Shown: positions 3,492 through 29,900 of the stretch, piece after piece
How the letters are laid out: every line of letters begins with the position of its first letter
Position numbering within the stretch: the first letter of the stretch is position 1
Virus record (IMG/VR): IMGVR_UViG_3300028394_000172
Location: 1-36,992 of that record
DNA: 36,992 nucleotides
Origin: a virus
Direction: 5' to 3' (one strand)
Position numbers and translations under genes: made by a program
Notes under the pieces: generated by a model
Seen by the model: only the letters and a program-made list of their open reading frames with translations
Databases searched by the model: none
Told to the model about the DNA's origin: nothing

Positions 3492-3821
3492 TTATTCGGG
3501 GATCGCGGCAGCTTCCGCTTTCATTGCAGCGATGACTTTCTCCAGTTCTGGGATCGCCTCCAGAATTGCAGCATAGGCGGCACGGCTCTTGACCGCACTG
3601 GCATGGGATAATACGGTAAACAGTTTGTCCGTGGTAATCGTGCGCAACCCATCCACCGGACCGATCTCGCCTGTATGTGCGTTATAAGGCAGCGTCTCAA
3701 TCTGCACGCGGCCGCTGGTGGTTGTATCGGCAGAAATGACCAAAAGGGAAACCCACAACTCCGCAAATGTTTTTGCTGGGGTGGCTGGTACGGTGTAGGG
3801 GATATCGGATGCGATTGCCAT
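3492..3821 (-). CDS. Unknown small protein between fibre and lysin genes
   Basis: I chose the ATG at 3821 (MAIASDIPYTVPATP, 109 residues) over an upstream TTG, because the preceding bases form a C/A-rich leader like those of many genes here. No domain is recognised. The first half is beta-like and the C-terminus (about residues 75-109) is an alanine-rich helix (EAIPELEKVIAAMKAEAAA). The stop is 1 base before the next start, so it is translated together with the lysin-like gene. The position next to a fibre gene would fit a fibre chaperone or small tail protein, but nothing in the sequence proves this. Confidence 0.65.
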   Translation of the reverse strand: MAIASDIPYTVPATPAKTFAELWVSLLVISADTTTSGRVQIETLPYNAHTGEIGPVDGLRTITTDKLFTVLSHASAVKSRAAYAAILEAIPELEKVIAAMKAEAAAIPE

Positions 3822-3846
3822 GGTGATGTTTTTTGGGGGATTGGAA

Positions 3847-4854
3847 TTAAGAAACAATAATCTTTATTACCCCTGCATCGTTGTATAGTGCTCCCGTAGG
3901 GAGTCCTGTTGTCGAGGTGGGCAGATTGGTCAAAATAACGTATCCTGATGGGTCAATGGTAAGTCCGAGCGGGCCGTTGGTGATTGCTCCGTTGGTGTCA
4001 GTGCCCGCGCCCCGCAGTTCGATTCCCCGGGCAGTTCCACCGGAGCTGCCCTTGAGTGTTTGGATCACAAAATTATTGCCAGTGCTGGCTCTGATATCGA
4101 GGGCTTCAAGGGTCGTCGTCGCCCCACGTGAGGTGAAGGTGGAATACACACGCAGGTTCTGAGGATTGGTTCCGTTCCTTTGTGCCAAGATTCCTGTACC
4201 GTCGAGAGAAATTGAGGCAACTGGCGTGTTTAAATCCTTTAGAGCTGACCAAGCTAGCGCCAGATTCCCAGCTAATCTGAAGCCATATTGGCCAACATAA
4301 GCAGAAGCACTGCTATTTGATGTGCCTGCAAATACTATACCGCTACCGTCACCACCTACAGGAGCAAATGTTATAAGCCCATCGTAGCGGATTTTAAATT
4401 GACTTACCCCATTAAGAGTCGCTTCAAATTGCGTGCCAGTGTACCCAGTTGCCGCAGTCACTGTAAGCGGCGTGGAAAGATTTGCCGTCGGCGTAATCCA
4501 GGTGCCCGGAGTGCCTGCAACACTACACACGACCTCAATAGGGAACCGACTCGCAGAGTAGGTCGTCCCATTGATGGTAGCGCTCCCCGCCGCGATAACA
4601 ACCTCAAATGGATCGCCGAGTACTCCCGTCCCCGGGTTGCTGATAACCACAGTGCCACCGCTCGAAACCACGTACCTGCCATAGGCGACTGCGGTAAAAT
4701 TGGCAGTCTTATACTCACGCTTCGTTGCCGCACCAACCATGGCGGCGGTGATACCGCCTACCGTTCCGGTGAAGGTCGGACTGTTGATGTTTGCTTTGGT
4801 CGGGTCAGAGCCGCCACCACCGCTGGATGTGCTGCCAAGAATATTAATAGCCAT
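3847..4854 (-). CDS. Second tail fibre/spike-like protein
   Basis: A 335-residue protein. The N-terminus has a flexible Ser/Gly run (STSSGGGGS) and then NSPTFTGTVGGITAAMVGA, a motif repeated in many phage tail fibre shafts. The rest is rich in Gly, Thr, Asn and short beta strands (ARGIELRGAGTDTNGAI, LGLTIDPSGYVIL), as expected for trimeric beta-structured fibres. By eye its DNA is richer in A and T than the neighbouring structural genes, which suits a horizontally exchanged host-range module. The C-terminus (GALYNDAGVIKIIVS) resembles the end of phage proteins that carry 'lyNd.GvlkI'. The receptor-binding role is inferred. Confidence 0.75.
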   Translation of the reverse strand: MAINILGSTSSGGGGSDPTKANINSPTFTGTVGGITAAMVGAATKREYKTANFTAVAYGRYVVSSGGTVVISNPGTGVLGDPFEVVIAAGSATINGTTYSASRFPIEVVCSVAGTPGTWITPTANLSTPLTVTAATGYTGTQFEATLNGVSQFKIRYDGLITFAPVGGDGSGIVFAGTSNSSASAYVGQYGFRLAGNLALAWSALKDLNTPVASISLDGTGILAQRNGTNPQNLRVYSTFTSRGATTTLEALDIRASTGNNFVIQTLKGSSGGTARGIELRGAGTDTNGAITNGPLGLTIDPSGYVILTNLPTSTTGLPTGALYNDAGVIKIIVS

Positions 4855-4863
4855 AGTTGCAGA

Positions 4864-5127
4864 TCAGAAAATGTTTTGATAGGAAACCACTGCGCCATTC
4901 AAGGAGTACAAGCCGATGGGCTGCTGGTAGGTCTTATGCTCCTCATCCGTCAGAGCAATGGGCACGCCGATGGTCATGGCGATGCCAGAATTCCCGGGGG
5001 TATCACTGGCTCCGGTCATCCCACATTCGCCAAAATTGCAATCGCCGGATTTTAGTTGCAGGATCAAGGCTTTCCGCCCCACCGCAGCGGGAATTTCTCC
5101 GATTTCAAAAACATTAATGAGTGGCAT
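4864..5127 (-). CDS. Unknown 87-residue protein upstream of the fibre gene
   Basis: Starts MPLINVFEIGEIP at an ATG preceded by a C/A-rich leader and ends 10 bases before the fibre start. It contains CNFGECGM, two Cys four residues apart, then a Thr/Gly/Pro-rich turn and a short hydrophilic segment (TDEEHKTYQQP). No family is recognised. A real gene is supported by its fit between the two neighbours and by codon use like that of surrounding genes. It may be a small tail or fibre accessory protein. Confidence 0.6.
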   Translation of the reverse strand: MPLINVFEIGEIPAAVGRKALILQLKSGDCNFGECGMTGASDTPGNSGIAMTIGVPIALTDEEHKTYQQPIGLYSLNGAVVSYQNIF

Positions 5128-5131
5128 AAAG

Positions 5132-5233
5132 TCAGGGATTGAAGTGGGTGAGGGCGAAGAGGAAAATAAATCCCAGCCAGAGGCAGGCGATGATGAAGAA
5201 GCAGATGGTATTGAAGCGGTCGCCGGCAGTCAT
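5132..5233 (-). CDS. 33-residue single-pass membrane peptide overlapping lipoprotein stop
   Basis: A very short gene, MTAGDRFNTICFFIIACLWL and on, with one strong hydrophobic segment from about residue 9 to 29 and a short polar C-terminus (THFNP). Its ATG shares four bases (ATGA, 5230-5233) with the stop of the lipoprotein gene, which is strong evidence for coupled translation. It lies in the lysis region, so it could be a small holin, antiholin or spanin partner. It is too short for an ordinary i-spanin, because almost nothing remains outside the membrane. Function is inferred from context only. Confidence 0.5.
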   Translation of the reverse strand: MTAGDRFNTICFFIIACLWLGFIFLFALTHFNP

Positions 5234-9777: not shown

Positions 9778-10089
9778 TTATTTCTGTGTTTGCCAAGGGC
9801 GGGGGCGCTGGGGATCCGGGATGCGCCCTTCCGTGTAGTCCGCTACGTCGCTGAGGATGGCGGAGAGGAAGGACCAGGCCATGAGGAATGGCGTGGCCTG
9901 TCCGGTCAGGATCAGGTTCTCCTGCGCCGCCGTCTGCAGCGTCTCGTGAGCATAGGCCTCCACGATCTGGATCATGGCCCGCTGCGCCGGGTGGCTGCGG
10001 TTCGCCTGCAGCGTGTTGGCAATCAGAGCCAATTCCATCGGCTCGCCCCCGATGGAATTGGGGAAATAGTATTTTTGTGGTTCAGACAT
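9778..10089 (-). CDS. Unknown 103-residue helical protein
   Basis: Starts MSEPQKYYFPNSIGGEPMEL and consists mostly of helices (IVEAYAHETLQTAAQENLIL) with a basic Pro-rich end. It lies between portal and scaffold, where podoviruses often carry a small head gene. Its 32-base leader is almost entirely C and A with several CCAAC/CAACC blocks and no Shine-Dalgarno. No family is recognised. Confidence 0.65.
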   Translation of the reverse strand: MSEPQKYYFPNSIGGEPMELALIANTLQANRSHPAQRAMIQIVEAYAHETLQTAAQENLILTGQATPFLMAWSFLSAILSDVADYTEGRIPDPQRPRPWQTQK

Positions 10090-10121
10090 AGTGGGTGGAG
10101 TTGTTGGTTCTTGGTTGTTGG

Positions 10122-12359
10122 TTATGACATCACGGTCTGCTGCATGGTGCGGCCGGTGATGGCGTTCTGCTGTTGCTGCATCTGGGCTTGGAAATATTTC
10201 ACCCGGGCGCTGAAGACAGCCTTCATCTGCTCATTGCCGGTCAGGCGCTGCTGGATCTCTTGGCTGGCCTGGAGGAAACGCTCCAGCACTCCGAGGCGCA
10301 GCGCGTAGTTCTGTCCCTGCTTCTGGGGCGGCTCTGCCCCGCTCATGATGATGGCCAGCTGGGTCAGCTCGTCCTCGGTCTCGCTCTGGGCGGCGGCGTC
10401 CTTGCTCAGGATGAACCGGCCGGCGGCCTGCGGACTCACCATGCCAACGACGTACTCCACGAATTTTGCGCGGTCGAACACGCCCTCCGCATCGAGCGGA
10501 AGGATGAACATGCTATACAGCTTCACCAGCTCCATGATCCATTCCATGTTCAGGTTGCGGACATCGAAGGTGATATTCAGGTCGAACCCGTAGGGATCCA
10601 GCTCTGGCTTTGGCACTCCAGCGATGCGTTGCCAGACTTCTTCCGGCCAGTAGGCCTGACACAACCCCCACGCCAGCTGGAAGGCGCTGCCAATGTCCAC
10701 GAGGAAATCCGTGGTGACCTTGGTGTAAAACTGTTGTGTGACCGAGGACGGCACGTCTTCCGACATGCGCCCGAATTGAATGTTGACCAACCTCCACTCC
10801 TCCCGCCGCACCATGCTGCTATCAATCGACACGGGGGGAATCTTCATGAACTCGAGCGTGCCAGAGCGCCTCACGGGAATCTGGGCATTCGGCCCGAGGC
10901 TCCATTCATTCCCGGCCCGATTGCTGGGCACCAGGGCGGGCGGGGTCAGCTCCTGATCGGTGCGGTTCGTGGCAGAATCATGTTGGCGCTTGATGGCGTC
11001 CTGACGGCTCTGCACCATTTCCGGGATGCCCCGGCTGTCCAGCAGGTAGGGGCTTTCCGTCCGCTCCCGCCGCAGCGCGACAAAGGGGAAGCCCGTGTTC
11101 ACGGTGTTCACCGGCTCGTGATACCCATAGAGGCCGGTCACGCTCGGGTGAATCAGGCTGCGGTATAGCACCGGCGTGCCGCCCTTGCAGGTGGCCTTGT
11201 GATAGATCTCGACGATCTGGTACTCCTCCGTCTGCTGGGACTGCATGATGCCCCGCCGCACCGCCGCACCACCGAGCAGCCAGGATCGCCCGGGCCCGAT
11301 CAGGCCCGCGAAGGCGTGCCCCGCGTGTTTCATCACCTGCTCCACCCATGCCTCATCCCAGCCCTCAAGCGCGGCCAAATCCTGCAGCCGCGTCTTGGTG
11401 AACCACCGCACCCGTGCCACCCATTCCGCGCGGTCCAGCTCCGTGGTATTGGCCGGATAGAACACATCCACAAAAGGCATCAGTGCCTCGAAGCGGGGTT
11501 CATTCGTTTTCAGATAGGGCCGGTAATAGATGCCGGGTTCACCGGCCTGCAGCGCGGCCACCAGCCGGCAGATCTCGTCCTTGTCCACATGCAGGGTTGC
11601 TTCCTCTTCCCCATTGAGCAGCTGCCCCACGAGGGCTTCCAGCTCCGGCCGCTTCGCCGGATCCAGCAGCGCCGCCTGCAGCTGCTGCTCCGTCTGCATC
11701 AGCACCATCTCCGCCTCCTGCACCGCCTGCGTCATTTCCTCGCTCTGCGCATTTTCCGGGTTCTCCTGCCCGGCCTCGAGCACCTGCTGCAGGCCCGGCA
11801 TGGTGGTCTGCAGCATGAGGCGTTGCGCCATGCCGAGCAGGTCCGCTTCCGTCAGCTCCTCCTCGCGCAACCCCCGCTCAGTGTGCCACTCCACCGCCAG
11901 CACGCTGTGCCCATAGGTGTTCATCCCGTTCACGGCCCGATCGATCTGATCCCGCAGCAAGCGGCGGCGCGGGCCGCTGCGCAGCCATTTCAGCACCGGC
12001 CCCACGGCGCTGGCGGCCGCCGGGTCATCCGCCCCATCCACCGCCTCCGCCTGCGCCATGCCGGCCGCCAGCGCGGTGGTGCATAGCAGGTTCTGCTCCG
12101 TGATGATGATCTCCGCCAATGGCACCTGCGCATCCGAGGCCCCCTCCCACGGCGTGGCCGGATGCCCGAGGTCGTCCTCATGCTTGCGCCCATCCGCACT
12201 CTGCCCGTCCCACGAGCAGCCCTTGATCCGTTCGTTATTTTCCATGCGCCCTTGGAAATCGCCGGAATCAGTGAGGGCGTTCTCCATGTTATTGATGAGG
12301 GCGGACACGTCTGGGGCAGAACGTGGACTGAGGATGGCTGGGATTTTGTAGTTTTTCAT
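10122..12359 (-). CDS. Portal protein
   Basis: I start at the ATG at 12359 (MKNYKIPAILSPRSAPDVSA, 745 residues), because the upstream part of the frame overlaps the MerR-like gene and the ATG has a CCAAC-type leader. Size, position directly after the terminase and the pattern fit a P22-sized portal. There is an N-terminal clip/wing region with ATPWEGASDAQVPLAEIII, then IPEMVQSRQDAIKRQHDSAT in the stem/crown region, and a long Gln-rich helical C-terminus (FQAQMQQQQNAITGRTMQQT) like a barrel. It forms the dodecameric ring through which DNA passes. A large insert with Gln/Glu-rich helices at about residues 180-260 is notable. Confidence 0.8.
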   Translation of the reverse strand: MKNYKIPAILSPRSAPDVSALINNMENALTDSGDFQGRMENNERIKGCSWDGQSADGRKHEDDLGHPATPWEGASDAQVPLAEIIITEQNLLCTTALAAGMAQAEAVDGADDPAAASAVGPVLKWLRSGPRRRLLRDQIDRAVNGMNTYGHSVLAVEWHTERGLREEELTEADLLGMAQRLMLQTTMPGLQQVLEAGQENPENAQSEEMTQAVQEAEMVLMQTEQQLQAALLDPAKRPELEALVGQLLNGEEEATLHVDKDEICRLVAALQAGEPGIYYRPYLKTNEPRFEALMPFVDVFYPANTTELDRAEWVARVRWFTKTRLQDLAALEGWDEAWVEQVMKHAGHAFAGLIGPGRSWLLGGAAVRRGIMQSQQTEEYQIVEIYHKATCKGGTPVLYRSLIHPSVTGLYGYHEPVNTVNTGFPFVALRRERTESPYLLDSRGIPEMVQSRQDAIKRQHDSATNRTDQELTPPALVPSNRAGNEWSLGPNAQIPVRRSGTLEFMKIPPVSIDSSMVRREEWRLVNIQFGRMSEDVPSSVTQQFYTKVTTDFLVDIGSAFQLAWGLCQAYWPEEVWQRIAGVPKPELDPYGFDLNITFDVRNLNMEWIMELVKLYSMFILPLDAEGVFDRAKFVEYVVGMVSPQAAGRFILSKDAAAQSETEDELTQLAIIMSGAEPPQKQGQNYALRLGVLERFLQASQEIQQRLTGNEQMKAVFSARVKYFQAQMQQQQNAITGRTMQQTVMS

Positions 12360-12405
12360 GAGGTGGAAATTTGTGTTGGTTAAATGGAGACGGGAGGTGG
12401 TTGGG

Positions 12406-12609
12406 TTACTGGGATTGAGTGAATATTTTGACAATGCTATCCCGCTGGAACCAGCGGCGGGTGCCTCCAGCGGTGGATGAGGGGAGTTTTTTTTCTGCGG
12501 CCAGCTTCCGGAACTGGCCGGCCGTGGCCCCCAGTTCCTCGACCAACTGGATGGCCAACGCACGCCGCATGACGGGTGGATATTTTTTCGTGATTTCGGC
12601 GGTGCTCAT
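12406..12609 (-). CDS. Small MerR/excisionase-like DNA-binding protein
   Basis: Starts at an ATG at 12609 after a C/A-rich leader and has 67 residues (MSTAEITKKYPPVMRRALAI). The C-terminal half reads LAAEKKLPSSTAGGTRRWFQ then RDSIVKIF, which resembles the wing of MerR/excisionase winged-helix domains ('LPss..gGgrRrF.r.dv..f'). It lies between TerL and portal, so a small terminase-like or head-region DNA-binding role is possible. Its function is not established by the sequence. Confidence 0.6.
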   Translation of the reverse strand: MSTAEITKKYPPVMRRALAIQLVEELGATAGQFRKLAAEKKLPSSTAGGTRRWFQRDSIVKIFTQSQ

Positions 12610-12623
12610 ATTTGGGTGTGGGT

Positions 12624-14459
12624 TCAGTTGGCGCGGGCTTTGCGGGCCATGGTGGGTTGGCCGGCGTAGTCCTCCGGCTTGGAGAGGAGATGATAGCGGA
12701 TGGTGTCCCCCGCATCCTTGCAGGCTCCCTTCTGCCCGTCCTTGCCGGTCCAGTTGGTGAGGAAGAAGATGATCGCCTCGCAACGGTCCACCACGAAGAG
12801 GTGCGGGCAGTTCAGGCTGCTGACGGGCTGGGTGGCATCGTAGCTCAGCTTGTCATTGATCAGGGCCTCCCCCTCGCTGCTGACCTTCCCGCTGGCGGGC
12901 TCGAAGAGCAGGCCCAACTCCTCACACTCCTCGATCAGGGTGGTGTAGTCACCGGTGGTGGGCGTGGCCACAGCGCCGAACCGGCTATCCATGGACCGCT
13001 CATGCACCTCGATGGCGCGTGGTGCGGCGTCCGGAGCCAGGCTGTAAAACCACTTCCCCAGCTCCAGCTCGACGCGGGCAATCTCCGCCTTGTATTCCGT
13101 GAGGGAAAACCCCAGCGCCTCCTGCGCCGGCCCGGGGTCGCCGTCCGCCTTGCCGCGCTGGCTGGTCTCTGCCCAGTCCCCCAGATCGCCGTGCCCGGGG
13201 ATGTAATCGCCGGCCTGCGGCCACTGCCGCACGCAGTAGTGCCGGTGCCCGCTCACGAGCCACCAGGTCTGAAACCAGTTCCGGCTGTCGCAAGGATCGA
13301 CGACGTGATACCAGGTGCCTGATTTCGGCACGCGGTCCAGAGGAATGATGTGGACGGTGTCGGAAAATTTTGGGAACTTGGCGGCCCATGCTTTCCTGAC
13401 ATCGCCGTAGGCAATGATGCGGATGTTGTCCTCATGGGATCCGGCGAGGTCTTTGCAAAGGCCCTCCCAGTTCCCGTAAGGGTTATCGCGCGTCCAGAAG
13501 TAGAACACCCGGCGGGTCAGCTTCTTGCACTGCCGGACGCGCGGGGCTTTTTGGTAGCCTGCCACGGTCATTTCGCCATCGGCTCCCGTCGTCATGAGGG
13601 GCAGCAGCTCGGCGTCCTCCTCCTCGAGGATGCGCGAGCCATCCAGGAAATCCGCCACGGTGGCCGAATAACCTTCCTTCGGGGTGAAGGTGATGATGTG
13701 AACCGCCAGGTAAAGCTGCGCGACCTGTTGGGGCGTGAGGGCCCGGCCCGCCAGCAAATCGGCACGGCAGGCCTCCACGTCCCGCCGGTGCTCGGCGGTG
13801 CCGGTATCCTTGGCCCGGGTGTTGAGTCGCTCCTTCACGGTGGCCACCACGCTCTTCGGCACCAGCTCATCGCTCCACGCGGCCGTCAGCTCCGCTCCCT
13901 GCAACGTGGAGTTATCGGCTCCATACATCTTGAAGTCGCACAATCTGCCATCTGTTATGAACATCTCGTTCGTGAACCCGCTGCCCTCGGTGTAGGACAG
14001 CTTGGTGCTGCGCGTGTGCTTGGCTTTCCCGCTGTCTGTTTTCAACTCCGGCGGGAGGTATTTGTAGATGCGGGTCTGCGCGATGGTCTCGGAGGCGCGT
14101 TCATTTTCGTGCAGGCTCCACGTCCATGCGACGTAATCGCCGCGCAGGTTGTAGGGCCGGAAGTGGATCACATGGGGAGCCAGCCGCGCGGCGGCAAACT
14201 CGGTCTTGGCGGATCGGATCCCGCCCATGATGAGGATCTCCAGGACCGCCAGGGGATTGGCCAGCCGCATCTCGGCGACGTGCAGGTCCACCTTCCGCCA
14301 CATGGGCGGATGATACCCGTAATTGTGAGGGTCCGTGCGCTCCCGCCCGATCGCCTCCTCCCTCCGCCGCACCAAGTCCGCCGCCTGCCGCGCCGGCAGG
14401 GTCAGCAGCAGCTCGTCAGGGACGGGCTTGATGACGGGGTGGTAGGACTGGGCGATCAC
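12624..14459 (-). CDS. terL: Terminase large subunit (ATPase and nuclease)
   Basis: A 611-residue protein starting at GTG 14459 (no upstream ATG; the next Met is at residue 53). It has a Walker A-like GGIRSAKTEFAAARL at about residues 79-93, a Walker B-type LTAAWSDELVP near 190-200 with Asp-Glu, and a coupling motif ITFTPKEG near 255. The C-terminal nuclease half shows Asp-containing strands (VVDPCDSRNW, ERSMDSRFGA) and a final DAGDTIRYHLL near 590. These are the ATPase and RNase H-like nuclease of a phage packaging motor. It starts 9 bases after the SSB-like gene and is followed by the MerR-like gene and the portal. No separate small subunit is obvious. Confidence 0.85.
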   Translation of the reverse strand: MIAQSYHPVIKPVPDELLLTLPARQAADLVRRREEAIGRERTDPHNYGYHPPMWRKVDLHVAEMRLANPLAVLEILIMGGIRSAKTEFAAARLAPHVIHFRPYNLRGDYVAWTWSLHENERASETIAQTRIYKYLPPELKTDSGKAKHTRSTKLSYTEGSGFTNEMFITDGRLCDFKMYGADNSTLQGAELTAAWSDELVPKSVVATVKERLNTRAKDTGTAEHRRDVEACRADLLAGRALTPQQVAQLYLAVHIITFTPKEGYSATVADFLDGSRILEEEDAELLPLMTTGADGEMTVAGYQKAPRVRQCKKLTRRVFYFWTRDNPYGNWEGLCKDLAGSHEDNIRIIAYGDVRKAWAAKFPKFSDTVHIIPLDRVPKSGTWYHVVDPCDSRNWFQTWWLVSGHRHYCVRQWPQAGDYIPGHGDLGDWAETSQRGKADGDPGPAQEALGFSLTEYKAEIARVELELGKWFYSLAPDAAPRAIEVHERSMDSRFGAVATPTTGDYTTLIEECEELGLLFEPASGKVSSEGEALINDKLSYDATQPVSSLNCPHLFVVDRCEAIIFFLTNWTGKDGQKGACKDAGDTIRYHLLSKPEDYAGQPTMARKARAN

Positions 14460-14468
14460 GCGGAAAGT

Positions 14469-14795
14469 TCAGAAAGGAATTTGATCGCCATCCACGTCCG
14501 GAGGCGGGACGGCCTCGGACTTCCCGCCTTGGCCATTACGCTCCTCCGCCCGGGGCTCAAAGACGGAGCAGATAAAACTATCATCTCCCGCCTTCATGCT
14601 GGCGCTGCGCACGAGGGCGTAGAGGCTGGCGTGCAGGATATCCGCATCCATTTTAACCCAGAGGTTCCGGCGGCCATCCGAGTGGGTGCTCTGCATGAGC
14701 GTGCCGATATTTTTATAACGGTTTTTTTCCTGCGCCCCCTTCATGTATTTGCCAGTGACGGCGGCGATGCGACCGAGTTCGATGTGTTCTGCCAT
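14469..14795 (-). CDS. SSB-like protein with acidic IPF tail
   Basis: A 108-residue protein (MAEHIELGRIAAVTGKYMKG) ending in PPPDVDGDQIPF. The end matches the acidic tip with terminal Pro-Phe that bacterial SSB uses to bind partner proteins. The body has a beta-like pattern (RNLWVKMDADILHASLYALV) that could be an OB fold, though shorter than usual SSB (150-180). It sits immediately downstream of the replicative helicase gene, and its leader is a clear CCAACC-type tract. Single-strand DNA binding in replication is a reasonable inference; the OB fold is unproven. Confidence 0.6.
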   Translation of the reverse strand: MAEHIELGRIAAVTGKYMKGAQEKNRYKNIGTLMQSTHSDGRRNLWVKMDADILHASLYALVRSASMKAGDDSFICSVFEPRAEERNGQGGKSEAVPPPDVDGDQIPF

Positions 14796-14821
14796 GGTGT
14801 TTGGTTGGTTGGGTTATTGCG

Positions 14822-16579
14822 TTAGAATCCGGCATCGTCATCAGACGTGGCCGGGAGATTTTGTTGCCGCTGGTTGGGGTTGTTGGAATACAGGCTGGCG
14901 GTCTTGGGGGCGAAGCGGGCAAGGTCGCCACGGAATAGGACGGGCAGGTCCGCCTGGGCGCAGGCTCGGCCTTTCCGGATGGCGAAGATGCCTTGGGCGC
15001 TGTAGTAGGACTCCCCGTCCCAGCGCGGTTCCTTGAGCAGCTCGGCGTCCTTGCTGCTGTTGCGGCCCTTGGCGTATTCCTCCCATTTTTCCTGGTCGTC
15101 CTCTTTGAGCTTGTCCCAAGGTTTGTAATAACTCTCCCGGTGGACGAAGGCGACGCCGTCCGCGTACTCCTCCATGGAGCCACCTTCCTTCAGGTGGGAC
15201 AGCATAGGGACGCGGCCGGCATTGTCTTCCGCCCCGCGTGAGACCTGGGCCAAGCCCACGATGACGATCTGGAATTTCTTGGCGAGGCCCTTCAGCATTT
15301 CGCAGACTTCCATGATGGCGAGGCGTGGATCGCCCTTGGCCTTTTTCTCGCAGGCTTTCACGAGCTGGAGGTAGTCCACGATAACAAGCGGGGGCTGGTG
15401 GCCCTGCTTCAGCTTTTCCGCATCCCAGGCGATGCGCCTGACAAAGTCCGTGATCTGGGCGCGGAGTTCCTGTGACGTGACGCCGTAGCCATCGTAGAAT
15501 TTCAGGCTGCCGGTGAGGATGCTGCTGATGGACTCGGAGAGGCGGCGGATTTCTGCTTGGGCGTCTTGAATGTGCCCATTGGTCAGTTCCACGGGGGGCT
15601 TGCCATCCGCTGCACGGCGGGCGGCCTTGGCTTCCAGGCGGCTTTCAAGCTCGCCCACGGCTTCCACCACGAGGGCGCGGTAAATCGTGTCAGCAGTCGC
15701 CCCCCGGTTCGCGTCCGCCACGCGCCGGGCGACCTTCCAGACCATGGCCTCGGCAGCCGAGAACATGCCGGTGCGGCTCTTGCCCAAGGCGATGCGGGCA
15801 CGGCCGAGGACGCTGCGGCCCATGATCTGCACGTCGGACATTTCCAGGGTGACCATCAGCACGTCGCAGTTCTTTTTGTTGGAGGCATCCAGGGCGATGG
15901 CTTCCGCGATGGCGGTGGCGAAAGATGTCTTCCCCATGCCGGGCCGGGCGGCGAGGATCCAGAACTCCTGCGGCTGCAAGCCATTCACCACGCGGTCGAT
16001 GTCAGGGAAGCCGAGGCTCAAGCCCATGGGATTCCCCCGGTGCTTGAAGGCAGCGGCCATGCTATCCGCGAGGTCCAGCACCACGTCCCGGCCATCCCGC
16101 AGGCCCTTGTGGGAATTGGTGCTGCGCATCCCCATGAGGCTGGCCTCCACGTCTTCCACGCTGGGGAGCCATTCCTCCGAGGTGTCGAGGAAGGCTTCCT
16201 TCATCTGCTCGGCGAGGGCGATCCCGCGCCGGCGGCGGGCTTTGTCGAGGATCTCCTCACAGTAGTGCTCCAGCGCAGTGGAGTTGGGCGCGAAGGTGTA
16301 GATCTCCGGCACCATGGCGGGCCCGCCTACCTTCTCCATGAGGTCGCGGTCCATCAGCGTCTGCTGCAGGAGGGTGGGATCCACCATGCGCCCGGCATTG
16401 TACGCTTCCCGCATGAGGCCAAAGATGATGCGGTTCGCCGGGAGGTAAAAATCCTCTTCCGTGACGAGGGCGCAGAGGCGAGGCATGTTGCGCCCGGGGT
16501 CGATCATGGCCGTGGACAAGGCCCCCTTCTCGCCGGTTTCAGCGTAAGGGTAGGAGCGGATGGAATCAGGGGAGGTCAT
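14822..16579 (-). CDS. dnaB: DnaB-type replicative helicase
   Basis: The start at 16579 (MTSPDSIRSYPYAETGEKGA, 585 residues) overlaps the stop of the initiator gene by ATGA. The N-terminal domain at about residues 15-125 matches DnaB N (ALSTAMIDPGRNMPRL..., ANRIIFGLMREAYNAG). The RecA-like domain has Walker A AARPGMGKTSFA near residue 230, Walker B VIVDYLQLV near 410 and the following GLAQVSRGAED. Between the two motifs it has about 60 extra residues (helical, Ala/Arg-rich) compared with ordinary DnaB. The C-terminus is polar and ends DDDAGF. It unwinds DNA at the phage fork; coupling with the initiator suggests it is loaded by that protein. Confidence 0.85.
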   Translation of the reverse strand: MTSPDSIRSYPYAETGEKGALSTAMIDPGRNMPRLCALVTEEDFYLPANRIIFGLMREAYNAGRMVDPTLLQQTLMDRDLMEKVGGPAMVPEIYTFAPNSTALEHYCEEILDKARRRRGIALAEQMKEAFLDTSEEWLPSVEDVEASLMGMRSTNSHKGLRDGRDVVLDLADSMAAAFKHRGNPMGLSLGFPDIDRVVNGLQPQEFWILAARPGMGKTSFATAIAEAIALDASNKKNCDVLMVTLEMSDVQIMGRSVLGRARIALGKSRTGMFSAAEAMVWKVARRVADANRGATADTIYRALVVEAVGELESRLEAKAARRAADGKPPVELTNGHIQDAQAEIRRLSESISSILTGSLKFYDGYGVTSQELRAQITDFVRRIAWDAEKLKQGHQPPLVIVDYLQLVKACEKKAKGDPRLAIMEVCEMLKGLAKKFQIVIVGLAQVSRGAEDNAGRVPMLSHLKEGGSMEEYADGVAFVHRESYYKPWDKLKEDDQEKWEEYAKGRNSSKDAELLKEPRWDGESYYSAQGIFAIRKGRACAQADLPVLFRGDLARFAPKTASLYSNNPNQRQQNLPATSDDDAGF

Positions 16580-19312: not shown

Positions 19313-19579
19313 TTATTCCAGCACCGAGGCGGCAGCCTCCCGGCTCAGCTCCAGCGGCATCCGCTCTATGAAAGGAGCGTCCCGGCTCACCCGGCTGGCC
19401 ATCTCCCGGTAGGTTGCCCAGACGTGAGGGAAGGCCGTCTGGATCGCACGCACCTCATCCAGCGTGGCAAAGCCCAGCGCCACGCCCAGCCTTTGCTGGA
19501 AGGGAGATCCATGCAGCGCCATTTGCGCCATCGTCGCCATGTCCAGCTCCGCCTCGTCTAGTTGCGTTGGTTTTTCCAT
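19313..19579 (-). CDS. Unknown 88-residue early protein
   Basis: A small, mostly helical protein (MEKPTQLDEAELDMATMAQM) with FATLDEVRAIQTAFPHVWAT and an acidic/hydrophobic end. It overlaps the end of the upstream membrane protein gene by 22 bases. No motif or family is recognised. Confidence 0.6.
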   Translation of the reverse strand: MEKPTQLDEAELDMATMAQMALHGSPFQQRLGVALGFATLDEVRAIQTAFPHVWATYREMASRVSRDAPFIERMPLELSREAAASVLE

Positions 19580-19848
19580 ATCAAATAATCAGTTGGGGTT
19601 GAAGGGTGGCGGACACTCACAGGCCGATTGATCCGGGGCAGTCCGGCCCGCTGCCGGGCCTCATCCGCCTCCAGCCCCAGCTGGCGCAGCCACAGCGCAC
19701 GGTCCTGTTGGCGTCTTTGCCGCACATAGGTCAGGCTATCCTTGTACAGCCACCAGCCCGCCGCGTAGCAGCTTAGGGCCAGCGCGATCACCAGCCAGCC
19801 CAGCACGGCATCATTGCCCGCCATCGCATCAATATAATGAGGTTCCAT
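19558..19848 (-). CDS. Small single-pass membrane protein
   Basis: Starts at an ATG at 19848 (MEPHYIDAMAGNDAVLGWLV, 96 residues). One hydrophobic helix at about residues 15-36 (VLGWLVIALALSCYAAGWWL) is followed by a basic cytosolic-type tail (YVRQRRQQDRALWLRQLGLE). Its leader carries three AACTC repeats and then ACCC, the C/A-rich pattern seen in front of other genes. It could be a superinfection-exclusion protein, but nothing in the sequence decides this. Confidence 0.6.
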   Translation of the reverse strand: MEPHYIDAMAGNDAVLGWLVIALALSCYAAGWWLYKDSLTYVRQRRQQDRALWLRQLGLEADEARQRAGLPRINRPVSVRHPSTPTDYLIWKNQRN

Positions 19849-19880
19849 TCGTTTGGGTTCAGTTGAGTTGAGTTGAAAAA

Positions 19881-20777: not shown

Positions 20778-20831
20778 ACCTCATAAGTTCCTCATCATAA
20801 GCACCTCCACCTCATCCAACAAGAGAAAATC

Positions 20832-21095
20832 ATGACATCACCCATCTACACCCCCCACTGCCCCACCGGCTGCTACCCCACCTGGATCCCAGTCGCAGAC
20901 GCCCTCCCAGATTCCTGCCGCTGCGTCCTTTGCAGTGATTCCGAATGCACCTACCTCGGCGTCTATAGCCGCAAGGAAATAATCTGGAGCCCAGCCGACG
21001 AAGGCACGGACGGCTGGCAGGACGCCCAAACCGAAGGACCCTTCGACAGCATCATCACCCACTGGATGGAACTCCCACCCGTCCCTGAAACCTGA
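20832..21095 (+). CDS. DUF551-like small phage protein
   Basis: An 87-residue protein. WIPVADALPDSCRCVLCSDS at about residues 18-37 and ITHWMELPPVPE near the end are the two conserved ends of DUF551 (W.pvse.LPd...vl ... iTHWmpLPepP), a common phage accessory protein of unknown function. The leader contains CATCCAAC. It is followed 24 bases later by the next rightward gene. Confidence 0.75.
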   Translation: MTSPIYTPHCPTGCYPTWIPVADALPDSCRCVLCSDSECTYLGVYSRKEIIWSPADEGTDGWQDAQTEGPFDSIITHWMELPPVPET

Positions 21096-21119: not shown

Positions 21120-21509
21120 ATGAACCCAGCCTACCTCACCTATCTCAACAAATGCCGCGTCCGCACCGGAGACTACGGCACGGACGACAGCGATGGCTTC
21201 ACCGGCTTCTTCCTCATCCGCCCCCTGCACCGCCGGCTAAAGGTCATCGCCAGCGATGGCCTCGGCTGGCAGCACGTCAGCGTCAGCATCCCCAGCGCCC
21301 CGCGCGAGACGCCCAGCTGGGCCGAGATGGCCGCCATCAAAGACATCTTCTGGCCCCCGGACCAGGCCGTCATCCAGATCCACCCTCCGGCCGCAGACTA
21401 CATCAACAACCACCCCGGCTGCCTCCACCTCTGGCGTCCCACTACCGGCCCGGAAATCCCTCTCCCGCCTTCCTATATGGTAGGCCTTCCCGAACTCAAC
21501 CTCGCCTGA
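21120..21509 (+). CDS. Conserved phage accessory protein, W-HVSVS/HP.CLHLW type
   Basis: A 129-residue protein (MNPAYLTYLNKCRVRTGDYG). It contains GWQHVSVSIPSAPRETPSWA at about residues 49-68, then FWPPDQAVIQIHPPAADYIN and HPGCLHLWRP. This arrangement is recurrent in phage and prophage accessory genes (I associate it with a DUF7694-type family, from memory). It may have an OB- or barrel-like beta fold, but its function is unknown. Confidence 0.65.
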   Translation: MNPAYLTYLNKCRVRTGDYGTDDSDGFTGFFLIRPLHRRLKVIASDGLGWQHVSVSIPSAPRETPSWAEMAAIKDIFWPPDQAVIQIHPPAADYINNHPGCLHLWRPTTGPEIPLPPSYMVGLPELNLA

Positions 21510-21520
21510 CAACCAACCAC

Positions 21521-22393
21521 ATGAAACCCAAACCATACGACAACTTCACCATCACCCTCACCACCGGTCAGCCCGTCACCTGCACCCGCGAGACCATCGG
21601 CCCATCCCTCGCTCGCACCTACCTGCAGACCAACCTCACCAACCGCAAGCCCCGTCCGAGACAAATTGAGATCCTCAAACGCGACCTCCTCGCCGGCGCG
21701 TGGCGCTTCACCCACCAAGGCGTCGCCTTTGACGCATCCGGCAACCTCATGGACGGCCAGCACCGGCTCATGGCCATCATCGCCGCAGATATCAGCATCC
21801 CTGACATCCTCGTCTGGCGCGGCATCCCGGCAGAAGCCAAAGAAGCCACAGACCAAAGCCAAGGCCGCACCCTCGCCGAGAACCTTCAGCTCATCGATGG
21901 CGAGAAAAACACCGCCTCCCTCTGCTCCCTTGTGAATGCCATCGTCCGCTGCTGGACCTTCTACGACTTTCGCCTATCCTTACCCCAGACCCGCGAAATC
22001 CTCGCCCTCTTCCCCCTCCTCAGAAAAGTCGCCGCCGTAGACTCCCGGTCCGTCCCACCGCCCTTCGCCGTGCCCGCCGTCCGGGCCTGCTGCGGCATCG
22101 CCCTGCACCGCTGGCCCCAGGAAGCCGCCGCCTTCCATGACTCCTACCAGAAAGGCCTCAACCTCAGCGCCGACAGCCCCGCCCACCATTTGCGGAACTT
22201 CTGCCTAAACAGTGAGATCAAAGGCAGCAAAATCGCCAAAACACTCTTCGCCTACACCGCAGACTGCTTGGAAAGACACATCGCCGGCCGCCCCATGTCC
22301 TTATCCAAGCCCACCGGCACCGGCCGCGAATGGCTCCGCCAAGCCATGCCCAAAGAATACGCCGCCCTCCGCCAGATCCTCAAACTCGTATAA
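21521..22393 (+). CDS. DGQHR / ParB-sulfiredoxin-like protein
   Basis: The ATG at 21521 follows CAACCAACCAC, the leader type seen across this phage; 290 residues. Residues about 45-85 read RPRQIEILKRDLLAGAWRFT then GVAFDASGNLMDGQHRLMAI. DGQHRL with the preceding 'G.L.DGQHRL.A' is the signature of ParB/sulfiredoxin-like and DGQHR-domain proteins, which often bind DNA or act in nucleotide-dependent steps. The C-terminal half is helical. The known catalytic use of such folds varies widely, so I leave the function open. Confidence 0.65.
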   Translation: MKPKPYDNFTITLTTGQPVTCTRETIGPSLARTYLQTNLTNRKPRPRQIEILKRDLLAGAWRFTHQGVAFDASGNLMDGQHRLMAIIAADISIPDILVWRGIPAEAKEATDQSQGRTLAENLQLIDGEKNTASLCSLVNAIVRCWTFYDFRLSLPQTREILALFPLLRKVAAVDSRSVPPPFAVPAVRACCGIALHRWPQEAAAFHDSYQKGLNLSADSPAHHLRNFCLNSEIKGSKIAKTLFAYTADCLERHIAGRPMSLSKPTGTGREWLRQAMPKEYAALRQILKLV

Positions 22394-22397
22394 CATC

Positions 22398-22727
22398 ATG
22401 CCAGACCTCATCATGCCCTGCCACGAATGCTGGGGATCCGGCACCCTGCGCGGCTACTTCCTGCGTTGGGTCAGCCCAGCCCCCGCATCCCAGCAGCACA
22501 CCCGCGCAGAGCAACGCCGCCTGCAGGCCCCCCGGTGGGCAGACCAGGAACCCGCAGAAGAAGAACATCCCTGCCACCTCTGCGCCGGCACCGGCCAGCT
22601 CCGCAACCACGAAGCCGAAGACCTCGCCGCCCAAGCCGCTGCCCCCAGCCGTGGCGGCATGGCCCTCTACAACCCCACCACCCGCCAATGGTGGCCCGCC
22701 CCTTACCAACCGACACCGACACCATGA
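22398..22727 (+). CDS. DnaJ-type zinc-ribbon small protein
   Basis: A 109-residue protein with two CxxCxGxG motifs, CHECWGSG near residue 8 and CHLCAGTG near residue 58, the zinc-binding repeats of the DnaJ cysteine-rich domain. No J domain or substrate domain is present. Its ATG is 4 bases after the previous stop and its own stop overlaps the exonuclease start by ATGA. It may be a small adaptor or a nucleic-acid-binding zinc protein working with the exonuclease. Confidence 0.6.
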   Translation: MPDLIMPCHECWGSGTLRGYFLRWVSPAPASQQHTRAEQRRLQAPRWADQEPAEEEHPCHLCAGTGQLRNHEAEDLAAQAAAPSRGGMALYNPTTRQWWPAPYQPTPTP

Positions 22728-23254: not shown

Positions 23255-23580
23255 AAACTGCGGCGTCGGTTCCAGCGAATTGTCCTGCTTCCCGCGACCG
23301 TAGGACACGGGCAGGACGGAGGACGGAGATACTGGCCCATATCCGATTCCATGGGGGATTCTCGATCTTCTGGGTTACTGAGCATCATTTGCGGGCCGTT
23401 GTTGCTGAAGCGATGCGGAAAACCGGTGAGATCGTGACTGACGAAAAAACTTACCCTTACCCATGGATCGGAGCAAAGATTTCAAGGCAGAACACGGCCA
23501 TCACGCCATCCGGATCACATTCTCCGGCTGCCGCTCCTCCTGCAGCCATGCCCCCATTTCCCGCCGCATCAGGGCCGTGA
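23251..23580 (+). CDS. Small protein converging on the integrase
   Basis: A 109-residue frame whose ATG shares ATGA (23251-23254) with the exonuclease stop, which is the main reason to believe in it. The middle (ILAHIRFHGGFSIFWVTEHH then LRAVVAEAMRKTGEIV) looks like a compact winged-helix-like domain; the last 30 residues are Ala/Pro-rich and overlap the integrase 3' end by 80 bases in antisense. No family is recognised. Confidence 0.5.
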   Translation: MKTAASVPANCPASRDRRTRAGRRTEILAHIRFHGGFSIFWVTEHHLRAVVAEAMRKTGEIVTDEKTYPYPWIGAKISRQNTAITPSGSHSPAAAPPAAMPPFPAASGP

Positions 23581-24793
23581 CATCGATGCGCTTGGCATAG
23601 TGCTTGGCCGTCGTATCCACACTACTGTGCCCCAGTGCTTCCTGCGCGGCCGTCGGCTTATCGATGCTCCAGAGGATTGATCCCACCGTATCGCGCAGCC
23701 GGTGATTCCCCTGCGTCCTCTCCCCCGTCCCGCCGATGATCGTTTTCACCCACTCATTGTGCTGCATCCGCACCAGCTCCTCCCGCTGCTTCTCCGTCCC
23801 GCCCGGCAGGATCAGATAGTCCCCCTTCCGGCGGTTCGCCAACAGCGCCGCCGCCACCATGCGGGTCAGGGGTATCATCTGGTCGCGCGTCCCCGGCTTC
23901 TTGCGGAATTTCGGCTCCGTCCGGTTCCGGATCTCCAGATGCCAGCGGCCGCCCACCTTCACCAGCCAGCTGGCATGGATCGCCACCACATAAGCGCTTC
24001 GCAGCCCCGTCTGTCGCAGCACCGCATTCACCAGCGCCAGCGCCGGCCTCGTGCGCCGCAGCTCCTCAGCGCCTTTCAGCATCGCGGTGAACTGCTTACC
24101 ATCCAGCGGCTCCGGCCGGCTATCCTCCTCCGGCAGCCAAGGCCCCTTGCGGAATCCGTCCAGCGTCCCCGGCAGCTGCAGCGTCTTCAGCTTGTGGTAG
24201 GTGGCATCCTTGGAAAACAAATCCGTCGCCATCGCCAGCGTAGAATTGATCGTCGTATTCCCCTCCTGCGGCTCGCTCCAGTCCAGCGTCCCGCCCTGCG
24301 CCTTCTGGAAATACTTCTCCCTCAGCTCCGCCGTCAGGATCCCCGTAGACATTGCCCCGATCCGCGTCCAGTCCGCCACCTGCGCCCCGATCTTCTTCCC
24401 TTGGATCCCACCCGTGTGGATCGTCCATGCATCCAGCGCCGTCGCCACCACCCGCCGCATCGCATTGATATTCCGCTGCACATACATCGCATTCTTCAGC
24501 ACCTTCACCCCCTCCGCCTCGTAGGCCTCGAACAGCTGCTTGAACGTGCAAAGCGTCGCCCGCCCCTTCACTGGTTCCAGCGCATCCATCATCGCCTGCC
24601 AGCCCTCCGCCTTAATCTTCCGCTTCGCCGCCGCCTCCAGCCGTTCCGCCAGCGCCTTGTCCGTCGCGTTCGTATTGCGCAGAATCTGCCTCCCATCCGC
24701 CCCCCGGATCTTCAGGTAATAAGTATCGTAAAACTCCGGCACCTCCGGATTGGACCATTGGGCTTTCGGACGGCGCAATTTAAAGACTGACAT
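23501..24793 (-). CDS. int: Tyrosine-type phage integrase
   Basis: The ATG at 24793 (MSVFKLRRPKAQWSNPEVPE, 430 residues) was chosen over an upstream TTG because it follows a clear CCAACC leader. The N-terminus resembles an arm-binding/core-binding region. The catalytic domain shows Arg in VLRQTGLRSAYV, His-x-x-Arg in GNHRLRDTVGS, His in LGHSSVDTTAKHYA and the nucleophile Tyr in KHYAKRIDV. It should insert the phage into the tRNA-Lys gene whose 3' half lies about 660 bases upstream. Two small genes lie between it and attP. Confidence 0.9.
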   Translation of the reverse strand: MSVFKLRRPKAQWSNPEVPEFYDTYYLKIRGADGRQILRNTNATDKALAERLEAAAKRKIKAEGWQAMMDALEPVKGRATLCTFKQLFEAYEAEGVKVLKNAMYVQRNINAMRRVVATALDAWTIHTGGIQGKKIGAQVADWTRIGAMSTGILTAELREKYFQKAQGGTLDWSEPQEGNTTINSTLAMATDLFSKDATYHKLKTLQLPGTLDGFRKGPWLPEEDSRPEPLDGKQFTAMLKGAEELRRTRPALALVNAVLRQTGLRSAYVVAIHASWLVKVGGRWHLEIRNRTEPKFRKKPGTRDQMIPLTRMVAAALLANRRKGDYLILPGGTEKQREELVRMQHNEWVKTIIGGTGERTQGNHRLRDTVGSILWSIDKPTAAQEALGHSSVDTTAKHYAKRIDVTALMRREMGAWLQEERQPENVIRMA

Positions 24794-24822
24794 GATGGTT
24801 GGTTTGGTTGATTGTTGACCTT

Positions 24823-24981
24823 TCAAAGGTTTGCGATCAGCAGAGCAAATACCTTTGGATATTCCTCCTCGATGCGGTCCATGACAGCGGCAAACGCCGC
24901 ATCTACACCCATGCCTTGGTCCATGAGCTTCTCCGTTTTAGAATTGATCATCTCGATGAGTGCGTTGATTTCGGTATTCAT
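24823..24981 (-). CDS. Unknown 52-residue protein upstream of int
   Basis: A short but well-formed gene, MNTEINALIEMINSKTEKLM and on, ending in ALLIANL. It is an acidic helical protein with no known motif. Its start follows a leader with two CCAAC blocks and its stop is 30 bases before the integrase ATG. It is a candidate recombination accessory protein by position only. Confidence 0.6.
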   Translation of the reverse strand: MNTEINALIEMINSKTEKLMDQGMGVDAAFAAVMDRIEEEYPKVFALLIANL

Positions 24982-25019
24982 GACAGTGGTGGTAGTTGGT
25001 TCTGGTTGGTGCGTGGCGG

Positions 25020-25268
<249 letters not shown>

Positions 25269-25286
25269 TGGTGGGCTGGGTTGATT

Positions 25287-25305
25287 ATACCGGATTTTAT
25301 ACCAC
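25287..25305. repeat. 19-bp motif, inverted copy of 18190-18208
   Basis: ATACCGGATTTTATACCAC; contains TATACC-type half-sites. A related sequence (ATACCGATTATTATACCA) is at 25560-25577 on the other side of the tRNA fragment, so the motif flanks the attachment core. It also overlaps the -10 region of the int-operon promoter. It is a candidate recombinase- or regulator-binding site. Confidence 0.55.
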
Positions 25306-26386: not shown

Positions 26387-26661
26387 GGATGGGTTAAGCA
26401 GGCAGGGGTTGAGCTGATCCAGAGAGCAGTAAAGTCCAGCGGCAGGTGCAGGGTGCCCCCGTGCGCCTCCGCATAGCTCAGCAGGGCCCGGACGGCGAGG
26501 CAGCGGATTTGCTCCGCCTTCAGTCCGGTGCGGCCCGCCAGCGCAGCAAGCTGGGCGTTGTGCTCCTCTGTCAGTTTCCAGTATCGCTCAGGATCTTGTC
26601 CAGCATCTCGTTGATCAATTTGAGGGACAAGCCCTGCGGGGTTGACTGATCGTTTTCCCAC
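26383..26661 (-). CDS. RHH-like protein overlapping the HTH gene (start uncertain)
   Basis: The conserved part, RYWKLTEEHNAQLAALAGRT then GLKAEQIRCLAVRALLSYAE and AHGGTLHLPLDFTALW, is clearly homologous to the protein at 20273. Its strand begins upstream of the HTH stop (26571), so translation must start inside the HTH gene in another frame. A GTG at 26661 (92 residues) is my choice; an ATG at 26781 and a CTG at 26574, which overlaps the HTH stop as CTGA, are alternatives, as is ribosomal frameshifting. The stop overlaps the HNH start by ATGA. Confidence 0.5.
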   Translation of the reverse strand: MGKRSVNPAGLVPQIDQRDAGQDPERYWKLTEEHNAQLAALAGRTGLKAEQIRCLAVRALLSYAEAHGGTLHLPLDFTALWISSTPACLTHP

Positions 26662-26768
26662 TTGATCAAGGTGCCACGCGGCATCCCGATTTGTTTGGCG
26701 AATTGGGCTTGGGATAATCCCAATTTGGCCCGTGCGTCTTTCAGCTTGCGGCGCAGTTCCTCTGACAT
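26571..26768 (-). CDS. Cro/CI-family helix-turn-helix regulator
   Basis: A 65-residue protein (MSEELRRKLKDARAKLGLSQ) with the XRE signature LGLSQAQFAKQIGMPRGTLI followed by KWENDQSTPQGLSL. It has no oligomerisation or protease domain, so it resembles Cro or a minimal repressor. It lies in the usual place of immunity genes, next to attP, with palindromes upstream, and may control lysogeny together with the RHH gene. Confidence 0.8.
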   Translation of the reverse strand: MSEELRRKLKDARAKLGLSQAQFAKQIGMPRGTLIKWENDQSTPQGLSLKLINEMLDKILSDTGN

Positions 26769-26813
26769 AGTTTTGTTTCATGATTTGGAGTTGGTTCTGT
26801 CGACTCTGGTCTA

Positions 26814-26939: not shown

Positions 26940-29900
26940 TTATTTTACCAATTGAATCCGGGCGATGCGGCGGACGGTGGTCACGTAGTCGCTGAGGCGG
27001 CGCTGCAGGGCGGCGGGGGAGGCTGGCTGGTATTGGCCGGTCTCGATCTCCCGGCGGAGCTTCTTCACGGCGTTCCGGGTGCCGGGGCCGGCGCTGCGGA
27101 TGAGGGCGGTGCGCTGGTCATCGGTGAGGTAGCCGTTGGTGATCCGCTCGAGGGCGGCAGCGCGGACATAACGGTCGGCAGCGAGGCCTCGCAGGCCGGC
27201 GGCGGCGGCGGTGGCCCGCAACTCGCTGGGGGTGTCGTCGAGGTATTGAGACAGGGCCACTTCGTTGTCGATGCCGGAGATGCTCAGGCGATTCCGGGCC
27301 AGCCAGGAGGCCTCGGGGTCGCTGCGGTCCTGCTGGGTGATCAGCCGATTGATGACCCACGGTCCGGGTTCCCTCACCGGCTCGCCGAAGAGGTTGATGG
27401 CGGGCTGGCCTTGGGATTTCAGCACGGGGAGGTTGGCGAGCATGGTGCCGTTGAAACTTCCGGTGTCGATCTTGGTAGGGTCGATGGCCTGGGCGATGTT
27501 GCGCAGGAGCCCCTGCGCCGGGATCAGCCCGGCGGCGGTGCGGTAGGCGATGCTGTTGGGCTTGGCCGTGCCGTCGAGCATGCCGAAGAGCTTGTCCATG
27601 CTGGAGAGGACGCCGGTCTTCATGAGTGCTGCCCCACTACCGGCAAGGATGGCCTGGGCGCGTTGCCATGGCTCGTCGCTGTCCTTCCGGCCACCGTAGC
27701 GCCGGCGGTCCATGCTGGTGCCCACAGCGGATAGGATGAGACCGAGAGGGGTTTCCGCGTAGGAGATGTAGGCGGATCCTATCTTGATCGTGAAGGGACG
27801 CCATCCGCGCGGCATTTGATCGCGCTTGGCTTTGTCGGTGGGGCCCAAGCCATAGACCATGAAGGGCACGCGCTCGTCGTCCTGGTCTTCGTTGCCTTTG
27901 GCGAGGAGGTAGAGCAGGCCGGCCCCGGTGATGCCGATCACCGAGGCGGCCATCTTCTCGGCGCGTTGCTGCCGCGTCAGTCCAGCGCCTTGCTGGTTGA
28001 AAAGGTGCCCCCCTTTGAAGGCCCTCACTGCCCCCACGGGGGTGTAGTCGAGGGCTTGATCTGCCACGTTGGCGACGATGTTCACGAACGGGATGACCAT
28101 CCTCGCCACCGGGATCCGGCGCACCAGCAGATTGGCGACCTCGGCAAATGCCCCCATGGTCCCCTCTGGCACGTAGTTGTAGGTGGCCTCTCCGCCGAAG
28201 CGGCGCGCCGTGGCGAGGACTTCAGCGGAGCGCTTGCCTTCCACGATCTCAAAGGCGCGGCGATCGATCTGCCGGGCGGTCGGGGTGGAGGTGCCGGCGG
28301 ATTGCAGGTCGAGCTTGGCCTGGTCCATGGCGGCGGTCCAGGTGGCGGCGTCAAAGCCGAGTGTGGATTTCAGGTTGCCGCCGTTGGCCAGGGCGCGGGA
28401 GGTCTCCAGCCAGGCGCGGCCTTCCTTGGCCGTGTTGAAAAAGAAGCTATCCATGGCGGTGAGACTGCGGAAGACGTAGCGCCCCCAGGAGGCGGCACCT
28501 ACTCTGGCCAGCTTCTCCTTGAAGTTTCTGGGGTTCTCACTCCACAACATTTCGAGGACATCGTGCCGCTGCCATTCCGTCTCGCCCTTCATGACAGGGA
28601 TGCCCTTGCTGAAGGCCTCCCAGCCTTGCTTGGCTCCCTCGGCGGCCCCCTTGAGCATGCCCCTGATAAACTGGGCCGTGTGCCTGGGGTTGTTGGTGAG
28701 GACCACCTGCAGCGTCTTGCCGAGCAGCTGGGTGGCGTTGCCACTGACGTTCACCAGTTGGGTGCCGATGCCTGACAAAATGTTGGCATACCAGTAGGCG
28801 GTGAGCATTTGCCCCACCGGGATGCTTTCGTGGTGAGAGAGGGCGGCCAGAAGATTTCGCTGGGCCAGATTGCGCAGCCAGCTGCCCTGCGGTGCGGCGT
28901 TCACGCGGTCGGCCAGGGTGCGGATCCTAGCGGCGAATTCCGGGGTGAACTTAGGCAGGCCAAACGCGGTGGCGTAGGCGTCGAGGAACCACCGGTCGGT
29001 GAGGGCCCCAGCGGCGTGCCCTTCCATCAGGGCCTTGGCAATCGGGGGGATTTTGGCGGCGGCCTTCCGGGTGACCTTGGGCTTGGTGAGCTTCTCCGTG
29101 AGCTTGAGGATGGCCAGATCCTTGGCCATGGCGGCGCTGCGGCGGTGCTCCTCGAGCACCAGCCGGTCGAGCACGCCGGCCTCGTGATCCGGCACCCCGA
29201 GGGCGGCGGCCTGTGCGGCGAAGGCGGGGTTGATGTCCTTCATGTGGGCGCGGATCAGCTTCTCCAACTCGCTCAGGGTGCCGGCGGTGCCCCAGCTCAG
29301 GGTGTCGCTCTGGCTGCGGGCCAGCCTGGCAATCCAGTTGGTGGCGGCGTCCGGCGTCCGGGCGGCGCGTTCCTTGTCCGCTTCCGCCTTGGCCTCGGCG
29401 GCGGCTTGTTTCGTGGCCTGCACCACTGCCGCCGGGGTGGTGGCGAGCGTGGTCTGGACATGCTCGGTGCGCACCCGGTCGGTCTGCCGTTGGACTTGGC
29501 GGATGATGCCGCGCGGGGAGAACTTGGCCCAGAGGCCGAAGGCGCGGAGGGCTTGCCCGGCTTGGGTCGCCAGCGTCTCCAGCTGGGCGACCACGGCATC
29601 GAGCATGGCTTCCGCCTGATGCACGGCGGGGGCATTGCCGGTGTTTTCCGCGCGGCGGGCCCGGAGGTCCAGGCCGATGGCGAGCTGCTGCCCTAGCGCG
29701 TTCCTCTCATAATCCCGGAGACCGGCGGCGGGATCCAGGAAGAGCCGGGCCGCGCCTTCCAGGCCGCCTTCCCGGCCGATCCACTCGCGCACCTGCCGGG
29801 CTAGCTCCTCCTCCGTGAAGGGGGAATACTCTGCGGGCGTGAAGCGGGCCCGCCAGGACTCCCGCAGCCGGGCGTCTGCCTCCACCCGCTGGCCGAAGAT

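Follow-up and report, generated by a model that had tools for sequence, protein, structure and literature searches.

C/A-rich, G-poor leaders without Shine-Dalgarno sequences precede the genes of a G+C-rich phage with relatives in Verrucomicrobiota

C/A-rich and G-poor leaders, free of Shine-Dalgarno (SD) sequences, are confirmed as a real and genome-wide property of the phage studied here. The window, i.e., the whole stretch of DNA analysed, corresponds to a virus record of IMG/VR and comprises 36,992 bases, with a G+C content of 62%. Our computations find leaders of this composition directly before the starts, devoid of SD and of predicted structure, and find them again in phage relatives and in a clade of bacteria. 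We infer that they are used by the ribosome, and the explanation that we consider quite probable is an SD-independent initiation guided by a local lack of RNA structure, which is reached by dropping G.

The window encodes a terminase, a major capsid protein, a scaffold protein, a DnaB helicase, an exonuclease and an integrase, most of its genes being carried by the minus strand, and it contains no tRNA gene. The leaders listed by the initial annotation and the terminase gene are as follows (energies are predicted folding energies in kcal/mol).

10090-10121, minus strand: the leader singled out at first, the whole 32-nt gap between genes 10122-12359 and 9778-10089; CCAACAACCAAGAACCAACAACTCCACCCACT
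12360-12389, minus strand: leader of the 745-aa gene 10122-12359 (portal-like by position); no G in 30 nt, CAACC, energy 0.0
12610-12639, minus strand: leader of gene 12406-12609, mostly within the terminase gene; 4 G in 30 nt, CAACT/CCAAC, energy 0.0
14796-14825, minus strand: leader of gene 14469-14795; CCAACCAACCAAACACC, 1 G in 30 nt
24794-24823, minus strand: leader of gene 23501-24793, an integrase by PF00589; CAATCAACCAAACCAACCATC, energy 0.0
24982-25011, minus strand: leader of gene 24823-24981; CACCAACCAGAACCAACTACC, energy 0.0
25269-25298, minus strand: leader of gene 25020-25268; 3 G in 30 nt, energy 0.0
26769-26798, minus strand: leader of gene 26571-26768; 2 G in 30 nt, energy -0.7
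20802-20831, plus strand: leader of gene 20832-21095; 2 G in 30 nt, energy 0.0
21491-21520, plus strand: leader of gene 21521-22393; CAACCAACCAC before the ATG, energy 0.0
22694-22723, plus strand: leader of the exonuclease, start 22724 (MKTQIMLDLETLG), inside a longer upstream ORF; energy 0.0
3822-3851, minus strand: leader of the alternative ATG 3821 (gene 3492-3857, called with TTG); no G in 30 nt, no CAACC, energy -1.5
5128-5157, minus strand: leader of gene 4864-5127, C/T-rich and not C/A-rich; 2 G in 30 nt, no CAACC, energy 0.0
19849-19878, minus strand: leader of gene 19558-19848; CAACTCAACTCAACTGAACCC, 2 G in 30 nt, energy -2.4
12624-14459, minus strand: terminase large subunit, with Walker A-like GGIRSAKT and WSDEL motifs, aligned with L002-L004

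All 14 starts of that list are in-frame ATGs on the expected strand, and 12 of them are also starts in an independent gene call. The starts at 3821 and 22724 are in-frame alternatives to this call, the latter suiting the exonuclease domain boundary better than the longer ORF, as PF16473 starts at residue 103 of the long ORF, just past 22724. The leader at 10090-10121, described as almost only C and A, is indeed made of these two bases at 29 of its 32 positions (15 C, 14 A, 2 T and 1 G on the minus strand), with a predicted energy of 0.0 kcal/mol from -20 to +20. CCAAC or CAACC, announced as preceding the starts, is found within 30 nt in 11 of the 14 leaders and is lacking before 3821, 5127 and 19848.

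Leader composition was assessed on all 36 ATG genes given by a codon model trained on the window, and not just on the 14 listed starts, with the 183 internal in-frame ATGs of the window as controls. At positions -20 to -1, G amounts to about 10% at the 36 starts versus about 32% before the internal ATGs (mean count of 1.97 versus 6.47 in 20 nt; Mann-Whitney p=2e-16). C is the commonest base of these positions (39%, with A at 30%), and position -3 shows no clear preference for A (11 A, 12 C, 7 G, 6 T). The G content of the 36 leaders is 24-28% farther out than -40 but drops to 7-12% over the 20 nt next to the start, and codons 2-6 are likewise G-poor; upstream of the internal ATGs, G is flat at about 32% at all positions. 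The 13 leaders located within upstream genes resemble the 23 intergenic ones. No SD core is present in the 36 leaders, versus 39 of the 183 controls, and the leaders thus stand where an SD would be, as had been proposed. They also mark the true starts: the G count separates the 36 starts from 1091 other ATGs with an AUC of 0.93, folding energy does so with an AUC of 0.91, and a combination of at most 2 G with an energy above -4 selects 25 of the 36 starts and 21 of the 1091 other ATGs.

The leaders had been supposed to be unstructured, and folding predictions, made for local RNA only, agree with this. The mean predicted energy from -20 to +20 is -2.65 kcal/mol at the starts versus -9.63 at the internal ATGs, and the folding minimum is centred on the start codon (offset 0), within an unfolded zone extending from about -25 to +25. 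After shuffling, the start regions have a mean energy of -3.11 versus -2.65 kcal/mol for the native ones, which indicates that the start regions are unstructured because of their base composition. As composition explains most of the missing structure, G content itself may be under selection, and the lack of structure could be a by-product of composition.

According to the explanation that we favour, the leaders would be translation initiation regions acting without SD. Each start would be cleared of G between about -25 and +18, leaving C and A with few partners; the start codon would lie in single-stranded RNA, accessible to the 30S subunit, and other ATGs, lying in folded or G-rich RNA, would be ignored. 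At 62% G+C, unstructured RNA is most simply obtained by keeping C and dropping G, hence leaders that are C/A-rich and not A/T-rich. A milder preference for CAAC/AACC, and a bias against ACAC, would be superimposed. The initial proposal of a ribosome-loading signal is thus retained in a modified form: the trait common to the leaders is G depletion together with the unstructured zone from about -25 to +25, and CAACC is only an added preference.

Relatives of the phage were sought through its terminase. They are found at 80 viral loci and in the genomes of one Verrucomicrobia and one Lentisphaerota bacterium, as well as in 12 of 387 Verrucomicrobiota genomes, and those with a placeable origin fall in Verrucomicrobiota. 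The nearest relatives of the window in the terminase tree are L005 and L006, grouped with it at a support of 85, a placement made uncertain by long branches. Both have leaders of the same kind (0.41 and 0.37 times the control G; 0.54 and 0.42 CAAC per leader), and an adjacent group (L008, L009, L010, L012) has similar, weaker leaders. The 16 contigs classified as SD-using all fall in a separate cluster of 24 rows. Leader type requires 9 changes on the tree versus 21 in shuffles, a figure helped by near-identical rows. In this phage family, leader type tracks phylogeny, C/A leaders and SD use being found in distinct clusters. One relative, L082, is a provirus in a Verrucomicrobia genome, its terminase being 37% identical to that of the window. 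A capsid scan of the viral contigs yielded nothing, a terminase search in the family of genome G278 gave no match in 117 genomes, and an integrase search for the host gave weak matches only, the best one with 32% identity over about half of the protein.

Since leaders differ across Verrucomicrobiota, host genomes were compared over 21 conserved genes that lie on one strand in the S10-spc region, after alignment of their starts and with sense-strand groups only; a small number of these starts were probably placed at internal ATGs by mistake, an error that would weaken the contrast and not create it. Five genomes (G270, G278, G320, G308 and G180), three of them in one GTDB family, form one well-supported clade with SD in only 2-3 of the 21 genes, 11-16% G and 34-41% C. 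SD is present in most genes of G333 (14 of 18), G085 (5 of 6) and G163 (4 of 6). Verrucomicrobiota thus holds both SD-using and SD-poor lineages, the latter being one clade of five sampled genomes. The clade offers a plausible host group with a matching leader type, in line with the initial suggestion that host genes use similar leaders, and the most likely host of the phage is a lineage of Verrucomicrobiota in which cellular genes, too, begin behind such leaders.

The anti-SD sequence CCUCC is kept in all 12 of the 16S tails read, including those of G180 and G320 from the SD-poor clade. In this clade, uL16 has AGGAGG in 4 of the 5 genomes and uL6 has AAGGA in 4 of 5 (L262, L264, L259, L263; both names were assigned by us from the sequences), and nearly all neighbouring genes have none, so that the anti-SD may still be used there. 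Protein bS21 was found in 30 of 30 genomes and does not distinguish hosts. In another genome, G130, SD is present in 7 of the 15 genes of a provirus region (L143) but in only 2 of the 21 conserved genes of the host; a phage can therefore differ from its host in leader style, and this case counts against the favoured explanation. G115 (L138, L176-L178, L199) is a single contig with three 16S copies, whose general samples show G-poor leaders and no SD excess; SD cores are present in 5 of its 11 conserved operon genes.

Beyond G depletion, the 1080 leader bases contain 29 copies of CAAC in the sense orientation and none of its reverse complement, versus 27 copies on both strands of 3522 bases of other non-coding DNA. 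CAACC likewise occurs 14 times, with no reverse complement, versus 8 times on both strands of the same other DNA, and the motif is thus commoner upstream of starts than elsewhere. After mononucleotide shuffling of the leaders, the CAAC level is reached in a fraction of 0.0005 of the shuffles and that of AACC in none. After dinucleotide shuffling (1000 shuffles), the fractions are 0.003 for CAAC, 0.012 for CAACC and none for AACC, so that the excess of CAACC, like that of CAAC and AACC, holds against both kinds of shuffle; ACCA and AACCAAC also exceed these shuffles, and ACAC/CACA are depleted. CAAC/AACC is a milder preference superimposed on G depletion, and lack of structure alone does not explain its excess over shuffles, a point which counts against the favoured explanation.

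This excess, and the frequency of AACC in leaders of the SD-poor clade (0.43-0.71 per leader), could indicate that the ribosome recognises CAACC/CCAAC as a specific sequence, for example through protein S1 or another factor, or through 16S pairing outside the anti-SD. We regard this as rather unlikely. Many leaders do without the motif, those of 5127, 19848 and 3821 for example, and part of the AACC signal in host operons stems from TAA stop codons followed by CC. No pairing partner for CAACC/CCAACC was found in the 12 16S sequences, and no GGTTGG site is common to the 16S of C/A-leader hosts (G180 has one at -967 and G320 none). Pairing of the leaders with the 16S tail is moreover weaker than at internal ATGs (-7.5 versus -11.5). 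The corresponding scenario, in which a sequence-specific CCAA-type loading element, read by S1 or another ribosomal component, would have replaced SD in this clade of Verrucomicrobiota and its phages, the anti-SD being kept for a few genes such as uL16, appears equally doubtful. As a candidate genome-wide marker, CAACCAACC-N2-10-ATG gave no strong outlier among 387 genomes.

It is very improbable that the leaders are transcription signals, regulator binding sites or leaderless-promoter remnants and not translation signals: a short motif does recur upstream of genes, but the leaders lie in tight gene runs, 13 of the 36 sitting within upstream coding sequence, which also argues against leaderless transcripts, and they are tied to the ATG, with a G depletion that runs on into the coding sequence. 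Even less credible is an artefact of mutational or strand bias, or of a start choice favouring G-poor upstream DNA: a codon-model gene caller could push starts to composition boundaries, but a 'leftmost ATG' rule, by which starts are chosen without a coding model, gives the same composition (10.3% G), the same caller yields SD-rich and not C/A-rich leaders in L074, L075 and G333, G-poor leaders are present for genes of both strands, and the other non-coding DNA of the window is not G-poor overall (29.6% G).

SD-independent initiation at unstructured starts has known counterparts. SD-less mRNAs have been shown to have a folding minimum at the start and structured internal AUGs, with support from E. 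coli reporters (Scharff et al., 2011; PMC3121790), and similar symmetric base biases up- and downstream of starts are found in many phyla (Nakagawa et al., 2017; PMC5397173). The phage shares all these features, but here they concern about all genes of a phage of 62% G+C, are achieved via C and A, and are accompanied by the CAAC/AACC preference. SD is scarce and the anti-SD conserved in Akkermansia and another Verrucomicrobia strain (PMC10783764); these belong to the same phylum as the placed phage relatives and are alike in having rare SD and a kept anti-SD, but the C/A-rich leader, the SD-poor clade seen here and phages are not described in the sections consulted. The Kozak-like leaders of Bacteroidetes (Flavobacterium johnsoniae, PMC6847099) also combine no SD, a conserved anti-SD, low structure and a role of upstream bases. 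They are A-rich, however, whereas C comes first in the phage leaders; a Bacteroidetes-type leader with A at -3 is thus not what the phage has. In E. coli, translation is raised by CA-repeat enhancers (Martin-Farmer and Janssen, 1999, cited by PMC4611024), which also bring C/A-rich sequence near the start, but, as presented there, they are CA multimers downstream of the start, whereas the phage sequences lie upstream, with ACAC depleted and AACC enriched.

SD scarcity in Verrucomicrobia and structure-free initiation are thus both already published. What looks new is the C-rich character of the leaders, the additional preference for CAAC/AACC, the bacterial clade and its match with the phage. 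The literature searched, which covered few subscription journals, yielded no account of C/A-rich leaders in this phylum or its phages. Such leaders provide a simple rule for locating the starts of genes in Verrucomicrobiota of high G+C content and in the phages of this phylum, for which gene finders based on SD are liable to err, and suggest that SD-free initiation can run on C-rich instead of A/T-rich leaders. The contrast within the clade, where SD is lost from nearly all conserved ribosomal-operon genes and kept at uL16, offers a test of the remaining role of the anti-SD after SD loss.

Other features of the window concern its coding sequences. A single ORF of 2821 aa (26940-35405, minus strand) covers 23% of the window, matches neither PHROG nor Pfam entries, and contains two perfect or near-perfect tandem repeats (32956-33028 and 33188-33238) with units of 21 and 6 nt. 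The product of gene 25020-25268 carries an N-terminal Thr-Asp repeat, encoded by (TCGGTG) x6.8 at 25219-25259. Finally, gene 10122-12359, on the minus strand, has a distant relative in Phage C75C1 (OQ984151.1; 25% identity over 56%), the sole match among 50,697 phage records.
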